From: Elioraea tepidiphila DSM 17972
GTDB lineage: Bacteria; Pseudomonadota; Alphaproteobacteria; Acetobacterales; Acetobacteraceae
Length of the DNA stretch: 37,371 nucleotides
Direction of reading: 5' to 3'
Assembly: GCF_000378465.1 (NCBI RefSeq)
Contig: NZ_KB899942.1
Span: 1 to 37,371, forward strand
Position 1 is the first letter of the stretch; each line of letters begins with the position of its first letter. The notes below the pieces were generated by a model, which was not told where the DNA came from, searched no databases, and worked only from the letters and a program-made list of their open reading frames with translations. Shown here one piece after another: positions 4,554-12,815 of the stretch. Position numbers and translations under genes: made by a program.

Positions 4554-4928
4554 ATGAGCCTGCCCGTCCTCGTCACCATCCTCGTCTCGGTCCTGCTGTC
4601 GGCCCTGGCGCAGATCGCGCTGAAGGCCGGGATGTCGCGCCCGGAGATCGCCCAGGCGATCGCCGAGGGCGCGCCCGCGACGATCGCGGCGAGCATCGCC
4701 ACCCAGCCCTTCGTCATCCTTGGCCTCGCCGCCTACGGGCTCGGCGCGGTGGTGTGGCTGTTCGTGCTGTCGCGGATCGACGTCTCGCTCGCCTACCCGT
4801 TCGTCAGCCTCGGCATCGTCGTCACCATGCTGCTCGGCATGCTGGTGTTCGGCGAGGTGATCACGGCGATGCGCGCCGCCGGCGCGGCCTTCATCATCGT
4901 CGGCATCGTCATGCTGGCCTGGAGCTGA
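4554..4928 (+). CDS. SMR/EamA-type small membrane transporter
   Basis: A 124-residue protein with four predicted membrane helices (about 3-21, 46-66, 71-91 and 98-121), the size and layout of the small multidrug resistance / ArnE-ArnF group. Typical elements include SALAQIALKAG in helix 1 with the family's buried polar position and DVSLAYPFVSLGIVV in helix 3-4. In polysaccharide loci these proteins are generally lipid-linked sugar flippases rather than drug pumps. That role is inferred here from the flanking GT-C transferase and the HAD-UbiA fusion. The ATG at 4554 has GGAG seven bases upstream. Its TGA stop forms the first three bases of an intergenic repeat element. Confidence 0.85.
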   Translation: MSLPVLVTILVSVLLSALAQIALKAGMSRPEIAQAIAEGAPATIAASIATQPFVILGLAAYGLGAVVWLFVLSRIDVSLAYPFVSLGIVVTMLLGMLVFGEVITAMRAAGAAFIIVGIVMLAWS

Positions 4929-5004
4929 TACCCGACGCACAACGGCTTGACCTTTGTACGTCGGGTATCGCGCGCAGGGTTGGTGTGGCGGCTGCGCGCC
5001 AGGA
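4926..5004. repeat. intergenic palindromic repeat, copy 1
   Basis: The element opens with TGATACC, the TGA being the stop of the SMR gene. An 11-bp perfect stem (4927-4937 with 4959-4969) continues inward with four more pairs after one mismatch. A core of about 34 bases follows, bounded by an 8-bp inverted repeat (4970-4977 with 4992-4999). The core matches, in opposite orientation, the core of the larger copy at 12271-12401. It lies between convergent genes and probably also stops transcription in both directions, although no T-run follows. Confidence 0.85.
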
Positions 5005-5017
5005 ATGAGGGCGCAGC

Positions 5018-6679
5018 TCAGCGCCCACCGACCTGCCCCTCGACGCTGCGGCCGATGATCGGCAGCTCGATCGTCAGCGCGCGCCCGGTCGGCCGCACCT
5101 CGCCGCGCGCGCGGTAGATGCGGAGCTCGCGATCCTCCACCCGGATGTTCGCGCGCAGCGGAATGCGCGCCACCTCCTCGTAGCCTTCGCCTTCGAGCAC
5201 GCGCTGCAGCCGCGCCATCTGTTCGAGGTCGGTCCAGAAATCCGGCTGCGCCACCACCACGCCGACCCCGAGCTCGGCGAGCTTCGTCGCGATCTCCGCC
5301 TCGGTGTAGTCGGCCTGGGCGACGCCGAGCTCGCGCCGCACCGCGATCCTGAGCAGCAGCTTGTCGGCGCGCAGCGTGTAGAGATCGGGCCGGCCCGTCA
5401 CCGTGCGCATGTTGAAGACGAAGGCGCCGTCGCGCGTGCCCGAGAACAGCACGGCCGTGCCCGGCGGCGCGAGGGCGGCGGCGCGCAGCGCGGCCTCGCG
5501 GTAGCCCGCGACCTGCGGCACCGATACGGCCGCGAAGGTGACGCCGGCGAAGACGAGCGCGACCCCGAGCGGCAGGGCTATGCGCAGCGGCGCGGCAGAG
5601 AGGCCGCGGGCGGCGAAGGCGAGCCCGGCGGCCGCCCAGAGCGCGATCGGCACGAGCAGGATCACGCCGTGCCGCGCCTCCTTCAGCTCGACGAAGGAGA
5701 GTGCCAGATAGGCGAAGACGAACCACAGCACCGGCAGCAGCCGCTCGGCCGTGCTCCCACTGTCGCGCCGCAGCGCTGCGGCGAGGCCGAGCAGGGCGAG
5801 CGGCAGCGGCAGGATGCCGGTCATCTCCGGCAGCCGCGCGGCGTACCAGAGCCAGCCGGCGAGGGTGGCGCGCGAGGCGGCGGTGTCCGGGATGCCGGCG
5901 ACCGATTGCAGGTTCGCCTGGCCGAACAGCACCTGCAGCCCGATCAGCGGCACGAGCCCGAGCACGGCGAGCGCAAGCGCGATCCAGGTGACGCGGCTCG
6001 CGAGCAGCGCGCGGCCGCGCGCGAGCAGCAGGAACAGCCCGAGCGCCGGCATCACGAAAGCCATGTTCAGCTTGGTGTAGAGTGTGGCGAGGGCGAAACC
6101 GACCGCCAGCAGCAGCGAGACCGCTCGGCCGTCGCGCGCGTGGCGGACCGTGAACAGCGCCGTCCAGACCAGATAGGCGAGGCCCGGGATCTCCAGCATC
6201 ACCTGCCGGCCCCACAGCAGGATCTCGGGCATCCCCAGCAGCAGCACCGCGGCGGCGAGCGCGCTCCAGCGATCGAGCCAGAGCCGCGCGAGCAGCCAGG
6301 TGCCGAGGCCGAGCAGCGGCAGATGCAGCGCGATCACCGCCTGGGCGACGGCGTGGCTGTCGCCGAAGACGAGGAAGAACGGCGCGCTCAGCACATAGAG
6401 CAGCGGCGGGTAGAACAGGATCGTCAGCGCCGGGTAGCGCAGATAGTACTGCTCGGCGAAGCCGATCGGGTCGCGGATCGGTGCGGCCAGCACGAAATCC
6501 TTGAGGAAGATGCCGTTGAGCGCGTGCCGCGGCGCATCGCTCCACCAGAACGCGCCGTCGCGCGGCGAGGTCACGAAGAACAGCGCCGCCAGTGCTAGGA
6601 TGAGCGCGAGTCCGGGCAGGAGCTCCCGCACGCCCGGCGCGGCGAAAGGCATCGGCGGGGTGGTCGCACGCCCGTCCAT
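5018..6679 (-). CDS. ArnT/GT39-like membrane glycosyltransferase (GT-C)
   Basis: A 553-residue integral membrane protein with roughly ten or more hydrophobic segments and a soluble C-terminal part. The first large periplasmic loop has SDAPRHALNGIFLKDF, in the place where GT-C/ArnT-like enzymes keep the metal-binding or catalytic acidic residue, and YYLRYPALTILFYPPLL follows as in dolichyl-phosphate-mannose-type transferases. Such enzymes take a sugar from a polyprenyl-phosphate donor on the periplasmic side. The C-terminal region (about 380-553, with FSGTRDGAFVFNMR and VVVAQPDFW) looks like a small alpha/beta domain. The start at 6679 is chosen for AAGGAG six bases upstream. The frame is open further to 6763. 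It is divergent from the HAD-UbiA gene. Confidence 0.8.
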   Translation of the reverse strand: MDGRATTPPMPFAAPGVRELLPGLALILALAALFFVTSPRDGAFWWSDAPRHALNGIFLKDFVLAAPIRDPIGFAEQYYLRYPALTILFYPPLLYVLSAPFFLVFGDSHAVAQAVIALHLPLLGLGTWLLARLWLDRWSALAAAVLLLGMPEILLWGRQVMLEIPGLAYLVWTALFTVRHARDGRAVSLLLAVGFALATLYTKLNMAFVMPALGLFLLLARGRALLASRVTWIALALAVLGLVPLIGLQVLFGQANLQSVAGIPDTAASRATLAGWLWYAARLPEMTGILPLPLALLGLAAALRRDSGSTAERLLPVLWFVFAYLALSFVELKEARHGVILLVPIALWAAAGLAFAARGLSAAPLRIALPLGVALVFAGVTFAAVSVPQVAGYREAALRAAALAPPGTAVLFSGTRDGAFVFNMRTVTGRPDLYTLRADKLLLRIAVRRELGVAQADYTEAEIATKLAELGVGVVVAQPDFWTDLEQMARLQRVLEGEGYEEVARIPLRANIRVEDRELRIYRARGEVRPTGRALTIELPIIGRSVEGQVGGR

Positions 6680-6732
6680 CGGCAACTCCTTCACCATTCT
6701 GGGGCTAAGGCTTACCCCGAGTAGCCAATCGG

Positions 6733-8253
6733 ATGATGAACGCAACCGATCATCGCGCTCCACCGGCGCGTGAGCCCCAAGGCCGCCCGGCGGAGCCGGT
6801 GCCGCTCTGCGTCGATCTCGACGGCACGCTGCTCGCGGGCGACAGCCTCTATGAGCTGCTGTTCGCGGGGCTGCGCCGCCGCCCCGCCCTGGTGTTCCTG
6901 GCGCTGCTCTGGATCTGGCAGGGCAAGGCGGCGTTCAAGGCACGACTCGCGGAGGCGGTCGATCCGCGCGGCCTCGCCTTCCGTTTCCATGACGGCGTCG
7001 TCGCCTATCTCGCCACCGCCCGGGCGGAGGGGCGGCGGCTGGTATTGGCCACCGCCGCGCACCGGCGTGTGGCCGAGGCGATCGCCGACGAGCTCGGGCT
7101 GTTCGACGAGGTGATCGCCACCGAGGACGGGCGCAACCTGCGGGGCGCGGCCAAGGCGGCCGAGCTGGTGGCGCGGTACGGCCGCGGCGGCTTCGACTAT
7201 GCCGGCAACGACCGCCACGACCTGCCGGTCTGGGCGGAGGCGCGCCGGGCGATCGTGGTGGCAGCGGGGGGCTCGACGATCGCCGAGGCGGCGCGGCGGG
7301 TCGCCACCGTCGAGCGGGTATTCCCTGTCGCCGGGTTCGCGCCCCGGCCGCTGCTCAAGGCGATGCGCCTGCACCAATGGGCGAAGAACCTGCTGGTGTT
7401 CCTGCCGCTGCTGGCGGCGCACCGGTTCGACGAGGCGGCCGCCCTGCTCCAGGCCGGCGCGGCCTTCCTCGCCATGGGGCTGGTCGCCTCGGGTGGCTAT
7501 CTCGCCAACGACCTGCTCGACGTGCAGGCCGACCGGCGCCACCGCAGCAAATCCGCCCGGCCCTTCGCCGCCGCCACCCTGCCGCTGCCCTTAGGCCCGC
7601 CGCTCGTGCTGGCACTCGTCCTGCCCGGGCTCCTGCTCGCCGCGCTCGTCTCGCTGCCGCTCGCCGCCTGGGTCGGGGTCTATCTCGCCGCCACGCTCAC
7701 CTACTCGCTATGGTTGAAGCAGAAGGTCCTGATCGACGTGTTCTTCCTCGCCGGGCTCTACACCCACCGGGTGCTGGCGGGCGGCATCGCCACCGGGATC
7801 GTGCCGTCGTTCTGGCTGCTCGCCCTTTCGGTGTTCGTCTTCCTGAGCCTGGCACTGCTCAAGCGCTACTCCGAGCTGATCAAGGCGGGCGCGGCCGAGA
7901 CCGGCACGCCGGCCGCGATCCGCGGCTACCGGGCGGAGGATCTCGAACCGCTCGCCGGGCTCGGCACCGCGAGCGCGGTCGCCGCCGCCCTGGTACTCGC
8001 ACTCTATGTCGACAGCGACAACGTGCGCGCGCTCTACCGCTCGCCGGAACTGCTCTGGCTCTGCTGTCCGCTGCTGCTCTACTGGCTGAGCCGGATGTGG
8101 ATCGGCGCGCGGCGCGGCGTGATCGACGACGATCCGCTCGTGTTCGCGCTCCGCGACCGCATCAGCCTGGTGGTGCTCGGGCTGACCCTCGCGCTCGCGG
8201 CGGCGGGGGCGGTGGTCCATGCCTCCTGCGTGGCGGGGCTCGGGTGCGGTTGA
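6733..8253 (+). CDS. HAD phosphatase-UbiA prenyltransferase fusion
   Basis: A 506-residue fusion. Residues about 24-195 form a HAD-type phosphatase: the nucleophile motif DLDGT (Asp28, Asp30), LATAAHRR as motif II, and GNDRHDLPVW as motif IV. Residues about 205-500 form a UbiA-type membrane prenyltransferase with about nine helices and the first Asp-rich motif NDLLDVQADRRH (Asn259 to Asp267), followed by KSARPFAAATL. This matches the decaprenyl-phosphate phosphoribosyltransferase-like group of UbiA proteins, so it may make a polyprenyl-phosphate sugar, the HAD part removing the sugar phosphate. Substrate is inferred, not shown. It is the first gene of a five-gene plus-strand run and overlaps the next by 10 bases. 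Only a weak ribosome-binding site precedes the start, and the next ATG at 6736 is equally possible. Confidence 0.85.
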   Translation: MMNATDHRAPPAREPQGRPAEPVPLCVDLDGTLLAGDSLYELLFAGLRRRPALVFLALLWIWQGKAAFKARLAEAVDPRGLAFRFHDGVVAYLATARAEGRRLVLATAAHRRVAEAIADELGLFDEVIATEDGRNLRGAAKAAELVARYGRGGFDYAGNDRHDLPVWAEARRAIVVAAGGSTIAEAARRVATVERVFPVAGFAPRPLLKAMRLHQWAKNLLVFLPLLAAHRFDEAAALLQAGAAFLAMGLVASGGYLANDLLDVQADRRHRSKSARPFAAATLPLPLGPPLVLALVLPGLLLAALVSLPLAAWVGVYLAATLTYSLWLKQKVLIDVFFLAGLYTHRVLAGGIATGIVPSFWLLALSVFVFLSLALLKRYSELIKAGAAETGTPAAIRGYRAEDLEPLAGLGTASAVAAALVLALYVDSDNVRALYRSPELLWLCCPLLLYWLSRMWIGARRGVIDDDPLVFALRDRISLVVLGLTLALAAAGAVVHASCVAGLGCG

Positions 8254-9209
8254 GCCCGTCCGGCGTGAAGGCGCTTGCCAAGCGCGTCCTGTTCGCCTGC
8301 GGCGCGGCCGGGCTCATGCATCGCCGGCGCAACCGCGCCGTGCTGACGACGGTGATGTTCCATCGCGTGCTGCCGGACGATGATCCGCGCGCGGCCGGGG
8401 CGAATCCCACCTACGCGGTGACACCCGAGGAGCTCGATGCCTGCCTCGGCCTGTTCCGGCGCTTCCATGCCGTGATCGGGCTCGCCGAGCTGGAGGCGGC
8501 GGTCGCGCGCGGCCGGGACCTGCCCGCGCGGCCGCTGCTCATCACCTTCGACGACGGCTGGGCCGACACTGTCGAGCACGCCCTGCCGGTGCTGCGCGCG
8601 CATCGTGTGCCGGCGGTGGTGTTCGTCGCCACCGGCCATATCGGCCGCGCGGAGGGGTTCTGGCAGGAGGAGGTGTTCGACGCGGTGCTGGCCGGCGCGG
8701 GCGGGGCGCCGGCAGAGGCTCAAGCGACGGTCGCGGCGCTCGACCGGCTGGCGCCCGAGGCGCGGGCCGAGCGGCTCGCCGCGCTGCCGCGCCGCGCCCT
8801 GCCGCGCCGGATGGCGGATGCGGCGGGGCTTGCCGCGCTCGAACGGGCCGGCATCGCGATCGGCGGGCACGGCCACAGCCACGAGCCGCTGACCCGCGTC
8901 GCCGACCCGGCGGCGGAGTTCCGCGCCTGCCGCGAGACCCTCGCCCGGCTCGGCCTCGGCGGCGACCGGCCGGCCTTCTCCTTCCCGCACGGCCAGACCA
9001 GCCCGGCGCTGATCGCCGCCGCCCGGGCGGCCGGATTCGGGCTCTGCTTCACGAGCGCGCCGACCCTGACGCCGCTCGCGGCGCTCGACGCGGCGAGCGG
9101 GATCGGCCGGATCGAGATCGACCTGCGGCCGCTGCGGGGGCGCGCGGGCCTCGATCGCGCCACGCTCGCCTTCGGCCTGATCACCCCGCCACACGCGTCC
9201 GGACGATGA
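8244..9209 (+). CDS. NodB-type polysaccharide deacetylase
   Basis: A 321-residue carbohydrate esterase family 4 protein. The metal and catalytic motifs are in place: LLITFDDGWAD (motif 1, Asp-Asp), IGGHGHSHEPL (motif 2, the His pair), and FSFPHGQ (motif 3 region). The insertion between motifs 1 and 2, which includes GFWQEEVFDAVL, is typical of deacetylases in exopolysaccharide clusters. There is no clear signal peptide, so it may act on cytoplasmic lipid-linked intermediates or be membrane-tethered. The GTG at 8244 is chosen because it overlaps the end of the HAD-UbiA gene; a TTG at 8250 is possible. Its stop overlaps the next gene's ATG by four bases, so the two are translationally coupled. 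Confidence 0.87.
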   Translation: MRLSPSGVKALAKRVLFACGAAGLMHRRRNRAVLTTVMFHRVLPDDDPRAAGANPTYAVTPEELDACLGLFRRFHAVIGLAELEAAVARGRDLPARPLLITFDDGWADTVEHALPVLRAHRVPAVVFVATGHIGRAEGFWQEEVFDAVLAGAGGAPAEAQATVAALDRLAPEARAERLAALPRRALPRRMADAAGLAALERAGIAIGGHGHSHEPLTRVADPAAEFRACRETLARLGLGGDRPAFSFPHGQTSPALIAAARAAGFGLCFTSAPTLTPLAALDAASGIGRIEIDLRPLRGRAGLDRATLAFGLITPPHASGR

Positions 9210-10249
9210 GCGCACAGAGCCGCGCCGGGCTCGCCGCCGAGGTGAAGCGGCCCTCCGAGCTCAGCGCCGAGGAGCGCGCGACTTGGCTCGGCCTGATGGC
9301 GGCGCAGCCGCCGCTGCGCCGCGCCTTCTTCGCGCCCGGCTTCGCGGAGGCCTGCGAGCAGGCGCATGGCCGCGCGCGCGTCGCCGTGCTGCGCCGGGGC
9401 GGCGAGACCGTCGGCTTCTTCCCGTTCCAGTACCCGAGCGCATGGCATCGCCGCATGGGCCTCGCCGAGCGCATCGGCGGCGAGCTCTGCGATCATGCCG
9501 GCGTGATCCTGCGGCCGGGCGTGCGGCTCGATCCGGCCACGCTGCTCGGGCTCTGCCGGCTCGGCGGGCTGTTCATCAGCCATCTCGGCGAGGATCAGCC
9601 GGCGCTCGGGCTGACGGCGGCGGAGTGGCGCATCGGCCATGTGATCGACCTCGCCGGGGGCAGCGCCGCCTACTTCGCTGGCCTCGGCGCGGCGAACAAG
9701 CCGTTCCTGCTCGACACCGAACGGCGGCACCGGCGGCTGGAGAAGGAGTACGGCGCGCCCGAGATCAGCATCACGACGCGCCCGGAAGCGGCCGAGCTCG
9801 ACGCGCTGATCGCCGCCAAGCGCGCCCAGTATGCCCGCACCGCCGTCGGCGACCCCTTCGCCGATGCCGCGCATCAGCGCCTGGTGCGCCTGCTCGCCGG
9901 GCGCGAGGATGCGGCCTGCACGCCGCTGCTGAGCACGCTCACCGCCGGCGGGCGGGTGCTCGCGCGGCATTTCGGCCTGATGCATGCCGGCGTGCTCAGC
10001 TATTGGTTTCCGGTCTATGATCCGGAGGCGAGCAAGGTCTCGCCGGGGCGGCTCCTGCTCTGGCACACGCTCCGCGCCGCCGACGCGCACGGCATCCGGC
10101 TGATCGACCGGGGCGAGGGGGACAGCCAGGCGAAGCGGGATTTCTCGACCGGCGAGCAGCGTTTCGGGCGGGCAAGCTGGTATGCCGGCGGCTGGCGCGG
10201 CATGCTCGCCAAAGGCTGTCAGAAACTGACGTGGATGCTCCGTCGATGA
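9206..10249 (+). CDS. FemAB/CelD-type GNAT acyltransferase
   Basis: A 347-residue protein of the CelD/BcsL-like acetyltransferase group (GNAT fold, Acetyltransf_6). Typical parts are VAVLRRGGETVGFFPFQ in the N-terminal half, KRAQYARTAVGDPF in the middle, and the closing block LLWHTLRAADAHGIRLIDRGEGDSQAKRDF (split here as LLWHTL and RLIDRGEGDSQAKRDF). Members modify polysaccharide or lipid-linked precursors by acyl transfer, and the exact donor is not known. It is coupled at both ends by ATGA overlaps (9206-9209 and 10246-10249). A second, unrelated-looking FemAB-like gene, the XrtA-associated type, lies at 29879-30922. Confidence 0.8.
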   Translation: MSAQSRAGLAAEVKRPSELSAEERATWLGLMAAQPPLRRAFFAPGFAEACEQAHGRARVAVLRRGGETVGFFPFQYPSAWHRRMGLAERIGGELCDHAGVILRPGVRLDPATLLGLCRLGGLFISHLGEDQPALGLTAAEWRIGHVIDLAGGSAAYFAGLGAANKPFLLDTERRHRRLEKEYGAPEISITTRPEAAELDALIAAKRAQYARTAVGDPFADAAHQRLVRLLAGREDAACTPLLSTLTAGGRVLARHFGLMHAGVLSYWFPVYDPEASKVSPGRLLLWHTLRAADAHGIRLIDRGEGDSQAKRDFSTGEQRFGRASWYAGGWRGMLAKGCQKLTWMLRR

Positions 10250-11205
10250 GCGACGACCAGGCGCCCCCCCGCGCCGCGCCGACCGTCAGCATCGTCATCC
10301 CCGCCTACAATGCGAGCGGGCTGCTCGAGGCCGCGATCGGCTCGATCGCGGCGCAGACCCTGCGCGAGATCGAGGTGATCCTGGTCGATGACGCCAGCAG
10401 CGACGACACCGCGGCGCAGGCGCGCATGCTGCTCACCCGGCACGGCCTCGCGCACGACGTGATCCGGCTCGCGGCGAATGCCGGGCCGGCGGCGGCGCGC
10501 AACCGCGGCGTGGCGGCGGCGCGCGGCACCTATGTCGCCTTCCTCGACGCCGACGACGAATGGCTGCCCGACAAGCTCCGGCTGCAGGTCGCGCTGATGG
10601 AGGCCAACCCGAAGGTCACGCTGTGCGGCTGCCAGGCCGACTGGGTGGACGGGTCCGGCGCGGTCATCGGCCCGCTCTACCAGGACCTCCCCGAGCTGCT
10701 GCCGGATGGCTGGAAGCTGCTGCTCTGGAACTGCTACGTCGCGACGCCCTGCGCGATGGTGCGGCGGCGCGACCTCGGCACGCAGCCCTTCGATCCGCGG
10801 CTGCGGATCGGCGAGGACCGCGACCTCTGGATCAAGCTCGCGAGCAACGGCATCGTCGGGCTGGTGCCCGAGAAGCTGGTGAACATCCGCGTCTCGCCGG
10901 CGAGCTACATGTCGCGCCATACCGCCCTGCTGACGCAGTACACCAAGCCGATGCTGGAGAAGCACGTCGACGCCTTCGCCGACACGCTGTCGCTGCGCGA
11001 GCGGATGCGCGCGATCGGCAGCCTGCACAGCCAGATCGGCAAGGGGCTGAGCGGTGCGGCCGGCCACTACCTGAAGAGCGGCCGGCATCTGCTGATGGCT
11101 GCCCTGCTCGGTTTCCGGCCGATGGACAGCCTGCGTCACCTGCTCTTCACCTCCCCGCTCGTCAGCCCGCTGAAGCGCTACGTCAAGCGCGTGCTCGCGG
11201 GATAG
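10246..11205 (+). CDS. GT2-family glycosyltransferase
   Basis: A 319-residue inverting GT-A glycosyltransferase. The N-terminal domain shows VSIVIPAYNASGLLEAAIGS, VILVDDASSDDT and NAGPAAARNRG, then the metal-binding DXD-like FLDADDEW at about residues 102-109, and RLRIGEDRDLWIKL carrying the ED catalytic-base region. It adds a sugar from a nucleotide donor to the growing repeat unit at the cytoplasmic side. The C-terminal 60 residues have short hydrophobic and basic stretches suited to membrane association. The start at 10246 is chosen from the ATGA overlap with the previous gene; a GTG at 10231 is in frame. Confidence 0.9.
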   Translation: MSDDQAPPRAAPTVSIVIPAYNASGLLEAAIGSIAAQTLREIEVILVDDASSDDTAAQARMLLTRHGLAHDVIRLAANAGPAAARNRGVAAARGTYVAFLDADDEWLPDKLRLQVALMEANPKVTLCGCQADWVDGSGAVIGPLYQDLPELLPDGWKLLLWNCYVATPCAMVRRRDLGTQPFDPRLRIGEDRDLWIKLASNGIVGLVPEKLVNIRVSPASYMSRHTALLTQYTKPMLEKHVDAFADTLSLRERMRAIGSLHSQIGKGLSGAAGHYLKSGRHLLMAALLGFRPMDSLRHLLFTSPLVSPLKRYVKRVLAG

Positions 11206-11220
11206 GACACCGGCCTGCGC

Positions 11221-12255
11221 ATGCACCGCACCGTCGAGCTCGCCGCGCTGCCCGCGCTCGAGGCGCCGCTGCTGTGCGTCGTGATCGACACCGAGGAGGA
11301 GTTCGACTGGTCCGGCCCGTTGTCGTCACGCAACATCTCGGTGCAGTCGATCAACGACATCGGCTACGGCCAGGCGATCTTCCGCCGCTACGGGCTGCGC
11401 CCGGCCTATCTGCTCGACTACCCGGTGATCGCCGATCCCCGCGCGGCCGGGGTGTTCGGCCCATGGGCGGAGGCGGGCGAGTGCCTGATCGGCGCGCAGC
11501 TGCATCCCTGGGTCACGCCGCCGCACGAGGAGGTGGTGTGCCCGTACAACTCCTATCCCTGCAACCTCGATCCCGATCTGGAACAGCGCAAGCTCGCCGC
11601 CCTGACGGAGAGGATCCGCAGCACGCTCGGCATCGCGCCGCGCATCTACAAGGCCGGCCGCTACGGCCTCGACCTCGCGCGCGAGGCGATGCTGAGCGGG
11701 CTCGGCTATCGCGTCGACACGAGCGTGGTGCCCTATCGCAGCTTCGCCGGCGCGGGCGGCGGGCCCAACTTCTTCGGCTATCCGGAGCGGCTGTTCTGGA
11801 GCGGGCCGGCGGGGAACGTGCTCTACCTGCCGGTCACCCAGTCGCTGGTCGGGCCGCTGCGCTTCCTGCGCCGGCACAGGGTGAGCCAGCGGATCTTCGG
11901 GCGGCTGTCCTCGAGCCTGCATCTGCCGGGCATTCTCGCCCGGCTGCACCTGCTCGAGCGGATCATGCTGACGCCGGAAGGCGTGTCCTTCGCCGAGATG
12001 CGCAAGCTCGTCGACTCCATGCTGGCCGAGGGCGAGCGGGTGTTCACCTTCTCGCTGCACAGCCCCTCCTTCATGCCGGGCGGAACACCCTATGTGCGCA
12101 GCGCGGCCGAGCGCGATGCCTTCCTCGCCCGGATCGAGCAGTTCCTCGACTACTTCTTCGGACCTGTCGGCGGCAGGCCGGCCACGCCGCTCGATCTGCT
12201 GGCGATGGCCGAGACGGCGCGGCGGACAGTGACGTCGGTCGCCGCGGCGGCGTGA
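11221..12255 (+). CDS. WalW-like polysaccharide deacetylase-family protein
   Basis: A 344-residue protein of the WalW-like branch of the polysaccharide deacetylase superfamily. The first block VVIDTEEEFDWSG carries the acidic pair, GAQLHPWVTPP is the family's second block with the metal-site His, and RIYKAGRYGLD and FTFSLHSPSFMPG are the later blocks. Which sugar it acts on cannot be read from the sequence. There is no signal peptide. It is the last gene of the plus-strand run starting at 6733, 15 bases after the GT2 gene, and faces the minus-strand operon across a repeat element at 12271-12401. A GATAGGAC stretch upstream is only a weak ribosome-binding site. Confidence 0.82.
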   Translation: MHRTVELAALPALEAPLLCVVIDTEEEFDWSGPLSSRNISVQSINDIGYGQAIFRRYGLRPAYLLDYPVIADPRAAGVFGPWAEAGECLIGAQLHPWVTPPHEEVVCPYNSYPCNLDPDLEQRKLAALTERIRSTLGIAPRIYKAGRYGLDLAREAMLSGLGYRVDTSVVPYRSFAGAGGGPNFFGYPERLFWSGPAGNVLYLPVTQSLVGPLRFLRRHRVSQRIFGRLSSSLHLPGILARLHLLERIMLTPEGVSFAEMRKLVDSMLAEGERVFTFSLHSPSFMPGGTPYVRSAAERDAFLARIEQFLDYFFGPVGGRPATPLDLLAMAETARRTVTSVAAAA

Positions 12256-12270
12256 CGGCAGCGGCGCAGG

Positions 12271-12401
12271 CTCATACCCGGCGCACGAAGGTTTCATCTT
12301 CGTGCGCCGGGTATGAGGTTTCCTTTGGCGCACAGCCGCCACACCAGCCCTGCGCGTGATCCCAGGCTGCCAAAGGTCAAACCTTTGGCAGCCCGGTATC
12401 A
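12271..12401. repeat. intergenic palindromic repeat, copy 2 (two hairpins)
   Basis: A 131-bp element between convergent genes. Its left hairpin has a perfect 20-bp stem (12271-12290 with 12298-12317, 7-base loop). Its right hairpin has a perfect 13-bp stem (12365-12377 with 12381-12393, 3-base loop). Between them lies the core shared, inverted, with copy 1 at 4926-5004 (GGTGTGGCGGCTG and flanks). On the minus strand it begins TGATACC, and that TGA is the stop of the gene at 12399-12815. The hairpin with its strong stem should act as a two-way transcription stop, although no T-run is present. Confidence 0.88.
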
Positions 12402-12815
12402 GGCCCGCGCCGCGCCGGCCGGACGCGGCACGCCGGCCTCGGCATGACCGGCAAGGATCGCCACCTCGCACGGCGCCGCGCCTCGGGGCAGGATGAAGCT
12501 CAGCAGCGCGATCCTGGCCGAGCCGTCCGCATGCGCCGCCAGCACGACGACCTCCACCGGCAGGTCTTGGGCGAGGGCGGCGCAGCGCCCGATCAGCAGG
12601 GCCGCGCGGGGCAGCGCACCGGGGCCGAAGAAGCAGCGCGCCGAGGCGAGCGCGTGCCCGCCCGTGCCCGCCGCCGCGACCGTCAGCGTGAGCAGTGGCG
12701 GCACGGAGACCGCCGCCGCGCTCCGCACCGGAGCGGCCATCGCCGGTGGAACCGGCGCGCGGCAGGCGGCCGCGCTCAGCGCGAGCGGGGCAAGCGCGCG
12801 CCGGGTCAGGGTCAT
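12399..12815 (-). CDS. small exported protein of unknown function
   Basis: A 138-residue product with an N-terminal export signal (MTLTRRALAPLALSAAAC), either cleaved after AMA near residue 27 or, less likely, lipid-modified at Cys18, because the residues before it (AAA) fit the lipobox poorly. The rest is Ala-rich with LLTLTVAAAG, two further Cys and a run of beta-like segments (VEVVVLAAHADG, RIALLSFILP). No family was recognised. Its ATG overlaps the stop of the upstream glycosyltransferase (ATGA at 12812-12815), so it is co-translated as the last gene of the minus-strand operon. Its stop codon is provided by the adjacent repeat element. Confidence 0.65.
   Translation of the reverse strand: MTLTRRALAPLALSAAACRAPVPPAMAAPVRSAAAVSVPPLLTLTVAAAGTGGHALASARCFFGPGALPRAALLIGRCAALAQDLPVEVVVLAAHADGSARIALLSFILPRGAAPCEVAILAGHAEAGVPRPAGAARA

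Follow-up and report, generated by a model that had tools for sequence, protein, structure and literature searches.

The window analyzed here, a 37,371-nt stretch of DNA from Elioraea tepidiphila DSM 17972 (contig NZ_KB899942.1, part of a 4.30-Mb, 56-contig genome), contains two copies of a short, gene-free hairpin repeat. Copy 1 adjoins a small transporter gene (4554–4928, + strand; Pfam EamA, E = 8e-7), and copy 2, in the opposite orientation, adjoins a minus-strand reading frame that ends at 12401–12399 and whose last part (12402–12815) gave no Pfam match. An earlier note on this DNA described two elements with a common core, both beginning with TGATACC, the TGA being the stop codon of the adjoining gene. 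That description is confirmed by core matches at 4972–4997 (+) and 12330–12355 (−), with none in 100 shuffles, and by the reading frames, which place both copies between convergent genes; the rough gene caller was wrong at several copies, including both of these. The folds likewise show the stems as described. Copy 2 is complete and folds at −92.7 kcal/mol on the + strand (z = −12.29) and −96.5 kcal/mol on the − strand (z = −11.23). Copy 1 lacks one terminal hairpin (H2), a loss not mentioned in the earlier note, ends after the start of the linker, and folds at −42.8 kcal/mol (z = −2.95). Coordinates are collected in Table 1.

Table 1. Features of the two repeat copies in the window
Feature	Position	Strand	Basis
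Copy 1, left target-site copy: TGA stop of EamA-type transporter gene	4926–4928	+	sequence; 238 codons read in frame, GC3 (G+C at third codon positions) high; Pfam
Copy 1, H1 (TACC...GGTA)	4929–4967	+	fold; homologous position in family
Copy 1, core hairpin (14-nt loop at 4978–4991)	4970–4999	+	core match 4972–4997; fold; loop variation
Copy 1, probable linker remnant (approximate end); no H2 or right target copy	5000–5009	+	comparison with full copies
Copy 2, left target-site copy: TGA stop of minus-strand gene	12399–12401	−	499 codons open within locus; GC3−GC2 of 0.28
Copy 2, H1	12360–12398	−	fold; family alignment; pairing analysis
Copy 2, core hairpin	12328–12357	−	core match; fold; family alignment
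Copy 2, A-rich linker (T-rich tail behind H2 on + strand)	12317–12327	−	alignment; terminator scan; T-tract count
Copy 2, H2 (TACC...GGTA)	12275–12313	−	fold; family alignment; pairing analysis
Copy 2, right copy of duplicated TGA	12272–12274	−	flank comparison

The two copies belong to a family of non-autonomous, gene-free mobile repeats with three hairpins. With copy 2 as query, 94 BLAST rows, collapsed by hand, placed the family at no fewer than 41 positions in its own genome; this is a lower bound, 40 of 66 first-look candidates having been scored. The core pattern, allowing up to three mismatches, matched 44 times in this genome, compared with once for the reversed control. Convergent genes flank 24 of the 41 copies, by a hand count from rough gene calls. 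A full Elioraea copy, which spans approximately 124 bp between both TNA copies, reads TNA / TACC-H1-GGTA / TCGC / core / A-rich linker / TCA / TACC-H2-GGTA / TNA, where H1 and H2 are the terminal hairpins. The core hairpin has arms GCGCGCAG and CTGCGCGC enclosing a 14-nt loop, and two core types recur in several genera, one with loop GGYTGGYGTGGCGG (A-T and G-C closing pairs) and one with loop GGYTGGTGGGGCGG (G-C closing pairs). Rfam searches of 11 loci (E up to 1) gave no match on the element; three matches lay elsewhere, one being a tRNA above its gathering score and the other two far below theirs. A search of 72,556 plasmids with one Elioraea and one Rubritepida copy found no similar DNA.

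How the element inserts was read from comparisons with related genomes. Flank pairs were built for 25 sites, of which 23 were searched in six congeners, and 30 locus pairs were examined. Clean empty sites, with 0 to 1 nt between the TGA of the gene and the right flank, were found in ten comparisons covering eight loci (L004, L007, L008, L010, L012, L015, L020, and L023); the empty alleles come from two congeners. Nine of these comparisons were called by script and one (L008/L270, script score −35) was read by eye. In all ten, the empty orthologue already ends with TGA at the same codon. For example, an empty site reads GCGC TGA GGCTTCAG and the filled site GCGC TGA[TACC...GGTA]TGA GGCGTCAG. 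As read from such allele pairs, insertion is shown to turn TGA into TGA[TACC...GGTA]TGA, that is, to produce a 3-bp target-site duplication. The duplicated target is the stop codon, and the gene therefore keeps its stop.

These empty sites bear directly on the idea, put forward in the earlier note, that the element donates stop codons. On that account, the element would insert at random in gene tails and persist wherever its leading TGA falls in frame, which would fit the TGA found at the left end of 32 of 37 own-genome copies. We regard it as very improbable, given that the orthologues without the element end with TGA at the same codon and that non-TGA flanking triplets match on both sides in six copies. 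For the sites tested, donation is rejected, and the stop codons appear to be targets that the element did not supply.

The flanks of filled sites point the same way. Among 90 two-ended copies from all genomes, 64 have TNA on both sides, and in 58 of these 64 the same triplet stands on either side (mean of 46.3 in shuffled data; none of 100,000 shuffles as high). The matched triplets are TGA (52 copies), TAA (four), TCA (one), and TTA (one). Because TAA/TAA, TCA/TCA, and TTA/TTA copies exist, these data indicate that the target is TNA. The same copies reduce the appeal of insertion 3' of a TGA without duplication, in the style of IS200/IS605, in which the right-hand TGA would be part of the element. 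Most copies do read TGA...TGA, and in the majority of Elioraea copies base pairing joins the right TGA to the inner TCA of H2; the six matched non-TGA pairs and the lack of any Y1 transposase match in the own genome nonetheless leave this alternative unlikely.

Where the element inserts relative to genes was assessed for copies with a defined left end, counting as recognized any stop that closes an open frame with 80 codons or more and GC3 typical of coding sequence. The element sits exactly on such a stop in 29 of 37 copies in its own genome, in four of nine in other Elioraea, and in 37 of 66 in other genera, so the proposal that insertion occurs at gene ends stands. One of these loci, L310, has the element on the stop of a 488-codon frame, which we take to encode translation factor IF-2. 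The H1 end of the own-genome copies carries TGA or TAA in 34 of 37 cases. This bias extends beyond recognized stops: among 20 copies that have TNA on both sides and lie off recognized stops, some of which may sit on missed stops of short genes, 18 read TGA or TAA on the H1 side and two read TCA or TTA. Because of these 18 copies, orientation seems to be set by the target and not only by selection at stop codons.

Pairing within the hairpins was analyzed in 26 of 27 listed own-genome copies (L018 was left out), over 49 base pairs. In this alignment, 95.9% of cells were paired, compared with 87.8% after shuffling and 32 to 41% when slid. Changes on both sides occurred in 21 of the 49 pairs (11.2 in shuffles), and 75 cells carried two-sided changes (15.4 in shuffles; none of 500 as high), although this cell count overstates the number of events because many changes are common to subfamilies. 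The earlier observation that the stems differ in sequence and still pair, as compensatory change would produce, thus holds across the family. Identity was compared among 61 copies sorted into nine groups, and related genomes are mixed in at least one group. Between genomes, the core had a mean identity of 0.92, H1 of 0.63, and H2 of 0.60 (shuffled baselines of 0.53 for H1 and 0.52 for H2); the corresponding within-genome values were 0.94, 0.84, and 0.82. H1 and H2 are shown to vary between genomes yet stay paired, and the internal core hairpin is nearly fixed. In a cross-genus alignment of 32 copies chosen from 69 full ones listed, little is nearly invariant beyond the core and the terminal TNATAC...TATNA, and the two ends have only some four terminal bases, TAC(C/G), in common. 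Among the scored own-genome BLAST candidates, no match limited to H1 or H2 marked a longer element.

In two Elioraea species, the same orthologous stop codon carries an element (L002 and L077); the two H1 sequences differ, yet both form good hairpins. Separate insertions would fit this pair, and so would a later exchange. Template-switch correction, acting on quasi-palindromes as DNA is replicated, could keep the hairpins paired in place of selection acting on an RNA or exerted by an enzyme. At L014 (1499–1628), TCA stands on both sides and the inner H2 arm reads TGA, so that pairing is kept; outer flank and inner arm thus differ together from other copies, which hints at such a correction, and the near-perfect state of genome-specific hairpins is in line with it. 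The mechanism would explain neither the conservation of the core nor the spread of the element, and the core stem also shows paired changes around a nearly fixed loop. As the reason why the hairpins are kept, we consider template switching possible but rather unlikely.

Taken as a whole, we consider it probable that the family is a non-autonomous repeat of approximately 124 bp that inserts at TNA with duplication, and that the following recognition steps and the terminator steps discussed further below apply. The hits on stop codons would have two reasons: such G+C-rich genomes offer few TNA sites outside genes, and an element that re-forms the stop on insertion would do no harm. A one-sided target preference, for TRA on the H1 side, would set the orientation. 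A putative enzyme acting in trans would recognize the core and the folded ends, and not long sequence-specific inverted repeats; we infer this mode of recognition from the position of the nearly fixed part inside the element, between ends that fold but whose sequence is free. In its most specific form, which we offer tentatively as a possibility that falls well short of likely, this enzyme would read the one fixed hairpin in the interior, cut at the base of each of the two free-sequence hairpins on either side, and insert the element at stop codons in one orientation. If true, this would be transposition with ends defined by folding, of single-stranded DNA or an RNA copy, that nevertheless makes a 3-bp duplication, unlike systems with inverted repeats read as sequence and unlike IS200/IS605.

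Several observations weigh against parts of this explanation. The general TNA rule is favored by only six matched non-TGA pairs, and six unmatched TNA pairs oppose it. At least one flank is not TNA in 26 of the 90 two-ended copies, presumably owing to decay, truncation, or misplaced boundaries. The right copy at L007 is no longer an intact TGA, the G002 orthologue of L017 ends with TAG and its right flank could not be located, and L215 and L305, where only the left end is defined, have TCA there. Among the 20 locus comparisons without a clean empty site, ten had one flank only and ten had gaps of at least 14 nt or negative gaps, the latter being truncated, nested, or diverged sites. The baseline for stop-codon placement, 19 gene stops among 136 window TGAs (non-coding ones and stops), is probably low and was drawn from a single window whose gene calls are rough, at least one of them being wrong. 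Cores are also found alone, and 101 of 264 core matches have no definable end, so full elements are a subset. Finally, no transposase has been tied to the element and no copy was found to carry one, in a search that did not cover all core neighborhoods.

With respect to the mobilizing enzyme, the element could instead be a miniature inverted-repeat transposable element (MITE) moved in trans, through its terminal bases, by an IS5-family transposase of the IS1031 type, with the core and hairpins as passengers. The IS1031 group makes a 3-bp TNA duplication. The own genome has nine DUF4096 matches to IS5-like transposases, seven over the cut-off and several at contig ends, and the one IS5-like copy examined (L320, approximately 1177–2108) is bounded by 14-nt inverted repeats and flanked on either side by TAA, in the TNA class. 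Those inverted repeats, GAGYCTGTCTCGAA, have nothing evident in common with TACC...GGTA, and in an ordinary MITE the ends are conserved, the reverse of the variable ends and nearly fixed middle seen here. We see this route as possible, with the balance of evidence against it.

The earlier note suggested a repetitive extragenic palindromic (REP)-like element, which would be spread by a REP-associated tyrosine transposase (RAYT, a Y1 transposase). Short palindromes between convergent genes would suit such an origin, as would REP ends supplying stop codons, which are described in the part of the source consulted (PMC3733652). The Y1 transposase domain PF01797 had no match in the own genome and was present in one of 11 core-rich genomes (several of them drafts), and no GTAG or CGTC tag was seen at the ends in the alignments of 26 own and 32 cross-genus copies. 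Because RAYT-type transposases were not found in the own genome or in ten of the 11 core-rich ones, and with a 3-bp duplication made, a REP origin is not supported and has, in our view, hardly any likelihood.

The linker suggests a role in transcription termination. At least five A residues in eight linker bases were found in 27 of 40 own copies and 77 of 123 other copies (104 of 163), compared with 1.8% of random 14-mers from the loci examined. A T-tract on the H1 side was seen in none of the 40 own copies and in one of the 123 others. Pattern scanning found a terminator-like site at window copy 2 (12271–12317, +) and none at copy 1, which is without H2. Because the linker supplies a T-tract behind H2, the element could plausibly serve the convergent gene as a one-way terminator: H2 followed by this tract would end transcripts arriving from that gene, and H1 with the core would protect or end the transcript of the upstream gene. 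The two-way terminator suggested earlier is doubtful, the T-tract being on the H2 side only and copy 1 having no terminator-like site.

The core loop follows the pattern GG-TT-GG-TGT-GG-C-GG, which we take to resemble the thrombin aptamer, and loop positions 3, 7, and 9 vary most (241 hairpins; 19 for the reversed-loop control); as evidence for a quadruplex this variation is biased because positions 3 and 7 were unconstrained in the patterns used to collect the hairpins. An RNA G-quadruplex was considered and not adopted: the energy model was marginally in its favor in one variant (−12.9 versus −12.3) and not for the Elioraea or B-type loop.

Core hairpins also occur in other settings. At eight of 18 loci checked (L134, L138, L164, L172, L221, L224, L079, and L078), a core hairpin without a recognized H2 lies in reverse orientation approximately 13 to 23 nt 3' of a tRNA gene, and several of these loci have a T-rich spacer. 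In this setting the tRNA seems to stand in for H2. The opposite arrangement, with the core hairpin just 5' of tRNA-Met, is found in two Elioraea genomes (L058 and L092). At L071 (own genome) and L075 (G006), the core hairpin lies between a terminator-like hairpin and the start of a gene, presumably obgE. Core plus linker is repeated in tandem, at a spacing of approximately 34 to 48 bp, at L141, L155, L156, L181, L183, L212, L220, and L227. A second element, with a B-type core, begins at L018 where H2 of the first would be, and at L136 and L146 TACGG directly follows the right-hand TGA, as at the start of a possible second element.

An exact core scan of a one-genome-per-species collection found at least 109 stretches. 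Among the matches listed (80 titles), those with a genus or family name we take to be Alphaproteobacteria, mostly from Acetobacteraceae (Rubritepida, Roseomonas and genera split from it, Paracraurococcus, and Siccirubricoccus), with Hyphomicrobium, Stappia, Rhizobium, Devosia-labelled genomes, and Thermaurantiacus also appearing; several titles say only Proteobacteria. Within Acetobacteraceae, 28 of 150 genomes match with up to three mismatches in 26 bases (control, 0). Copy number is patchy, with 37 core matches in the own genome, 40 in G523, and 0 to 9 in six congeners. Spread beyond the family could not be gauged by a scan allowing up to two mismatches, which was unreliable (25 of 385 genomes matched; reversed control, approximately 34); the distribution given here is based on the exact core scan and the scan of Acetobacteraceae genomes. 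With this many places in one genome and relatives in other Acetobacteraceae and some other Alphaproteobacteria, the two window copies do not stand alone, and the family of small mobile elements postulated in the earlier note is real. No description of this hairpin element was seen among the papers listed by searches of one open-access library, where the core strings occur in one unrelated paper.

The repeats are a genuine mobile, structure-conserving family, and offer a natural case of a repeat using stop codons as a safe harbor, where the duplicated target restores the stop. The empty sites illustrate one way in which palindromic repeats can seem to supply stop codons, and the nearly fixed middle with free but folded ends makes recognition and movement of the repeat directly testable. 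The side on which H2 and the T-tract lie suggests that the element may hand terminators to convergent genes.

The resident IS5-like element with its TAA flanks and the IS1031 group share the 3-bp TNA duplication with the present element; their terminal sequences are unrelated to it. IS200/IS605-type elements, which make no target duplication and have a Y1 transposase, differ in that a target duplication is seen here and the own genome gave no Y1 match. REP sequences and bacterial interspersed mosaic elements (BIMEs) with RAYT are similar as palindromes downstream of genes, often between convergent ones, and their ends may supply stop codons, as far as the consulted part of the source goes (PMC3733652); the element described here differs in its longer three-hairpin unit, its target duplication, and the absence of a tag or of a RAYT in the genomes noted above. 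The closest described kinds are MITEs and CIR repeats. MITEs and small mobile repeats such as RUP, Correia/NEMIS, and ERIC are, in the portions of the sources consulted (PMC2229807, PMC10969869), likewise short and non-coding, with TA ends, target-site duplication, and no transposase of their own. Insertion with target-site duplication is seen here in the 58 of 64 TNA pairs and the eight empty-site loci; the variable ends, conserved middle, TNA duplication, and exact stop-codon placement set the family apart from MITEs as described there. Nearest in build are the CcrM-associated intergenic repeats (CIR) of Caulobacter and Brucella (Chen & Shapiro 2003, as described in PMC2229807), compared here by description only: these alphaproteobacterial repeats are intergenic, approximately 110 bp long, with two independent hairpin arms, a linker, and TA termini, are marked by GANTC sites, and have a target duplication given as unknown in the part consulted (PMC2229807). 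GANTC occurs in none of 30 own copies (6.0 expected) and is mildly enriched in other genera (22 of 50 copies versus 12.5 expected). Relative to CIR as so described, the present family has a third, core hairpin within the linker and a TNA duplication, mostly at stop codons.

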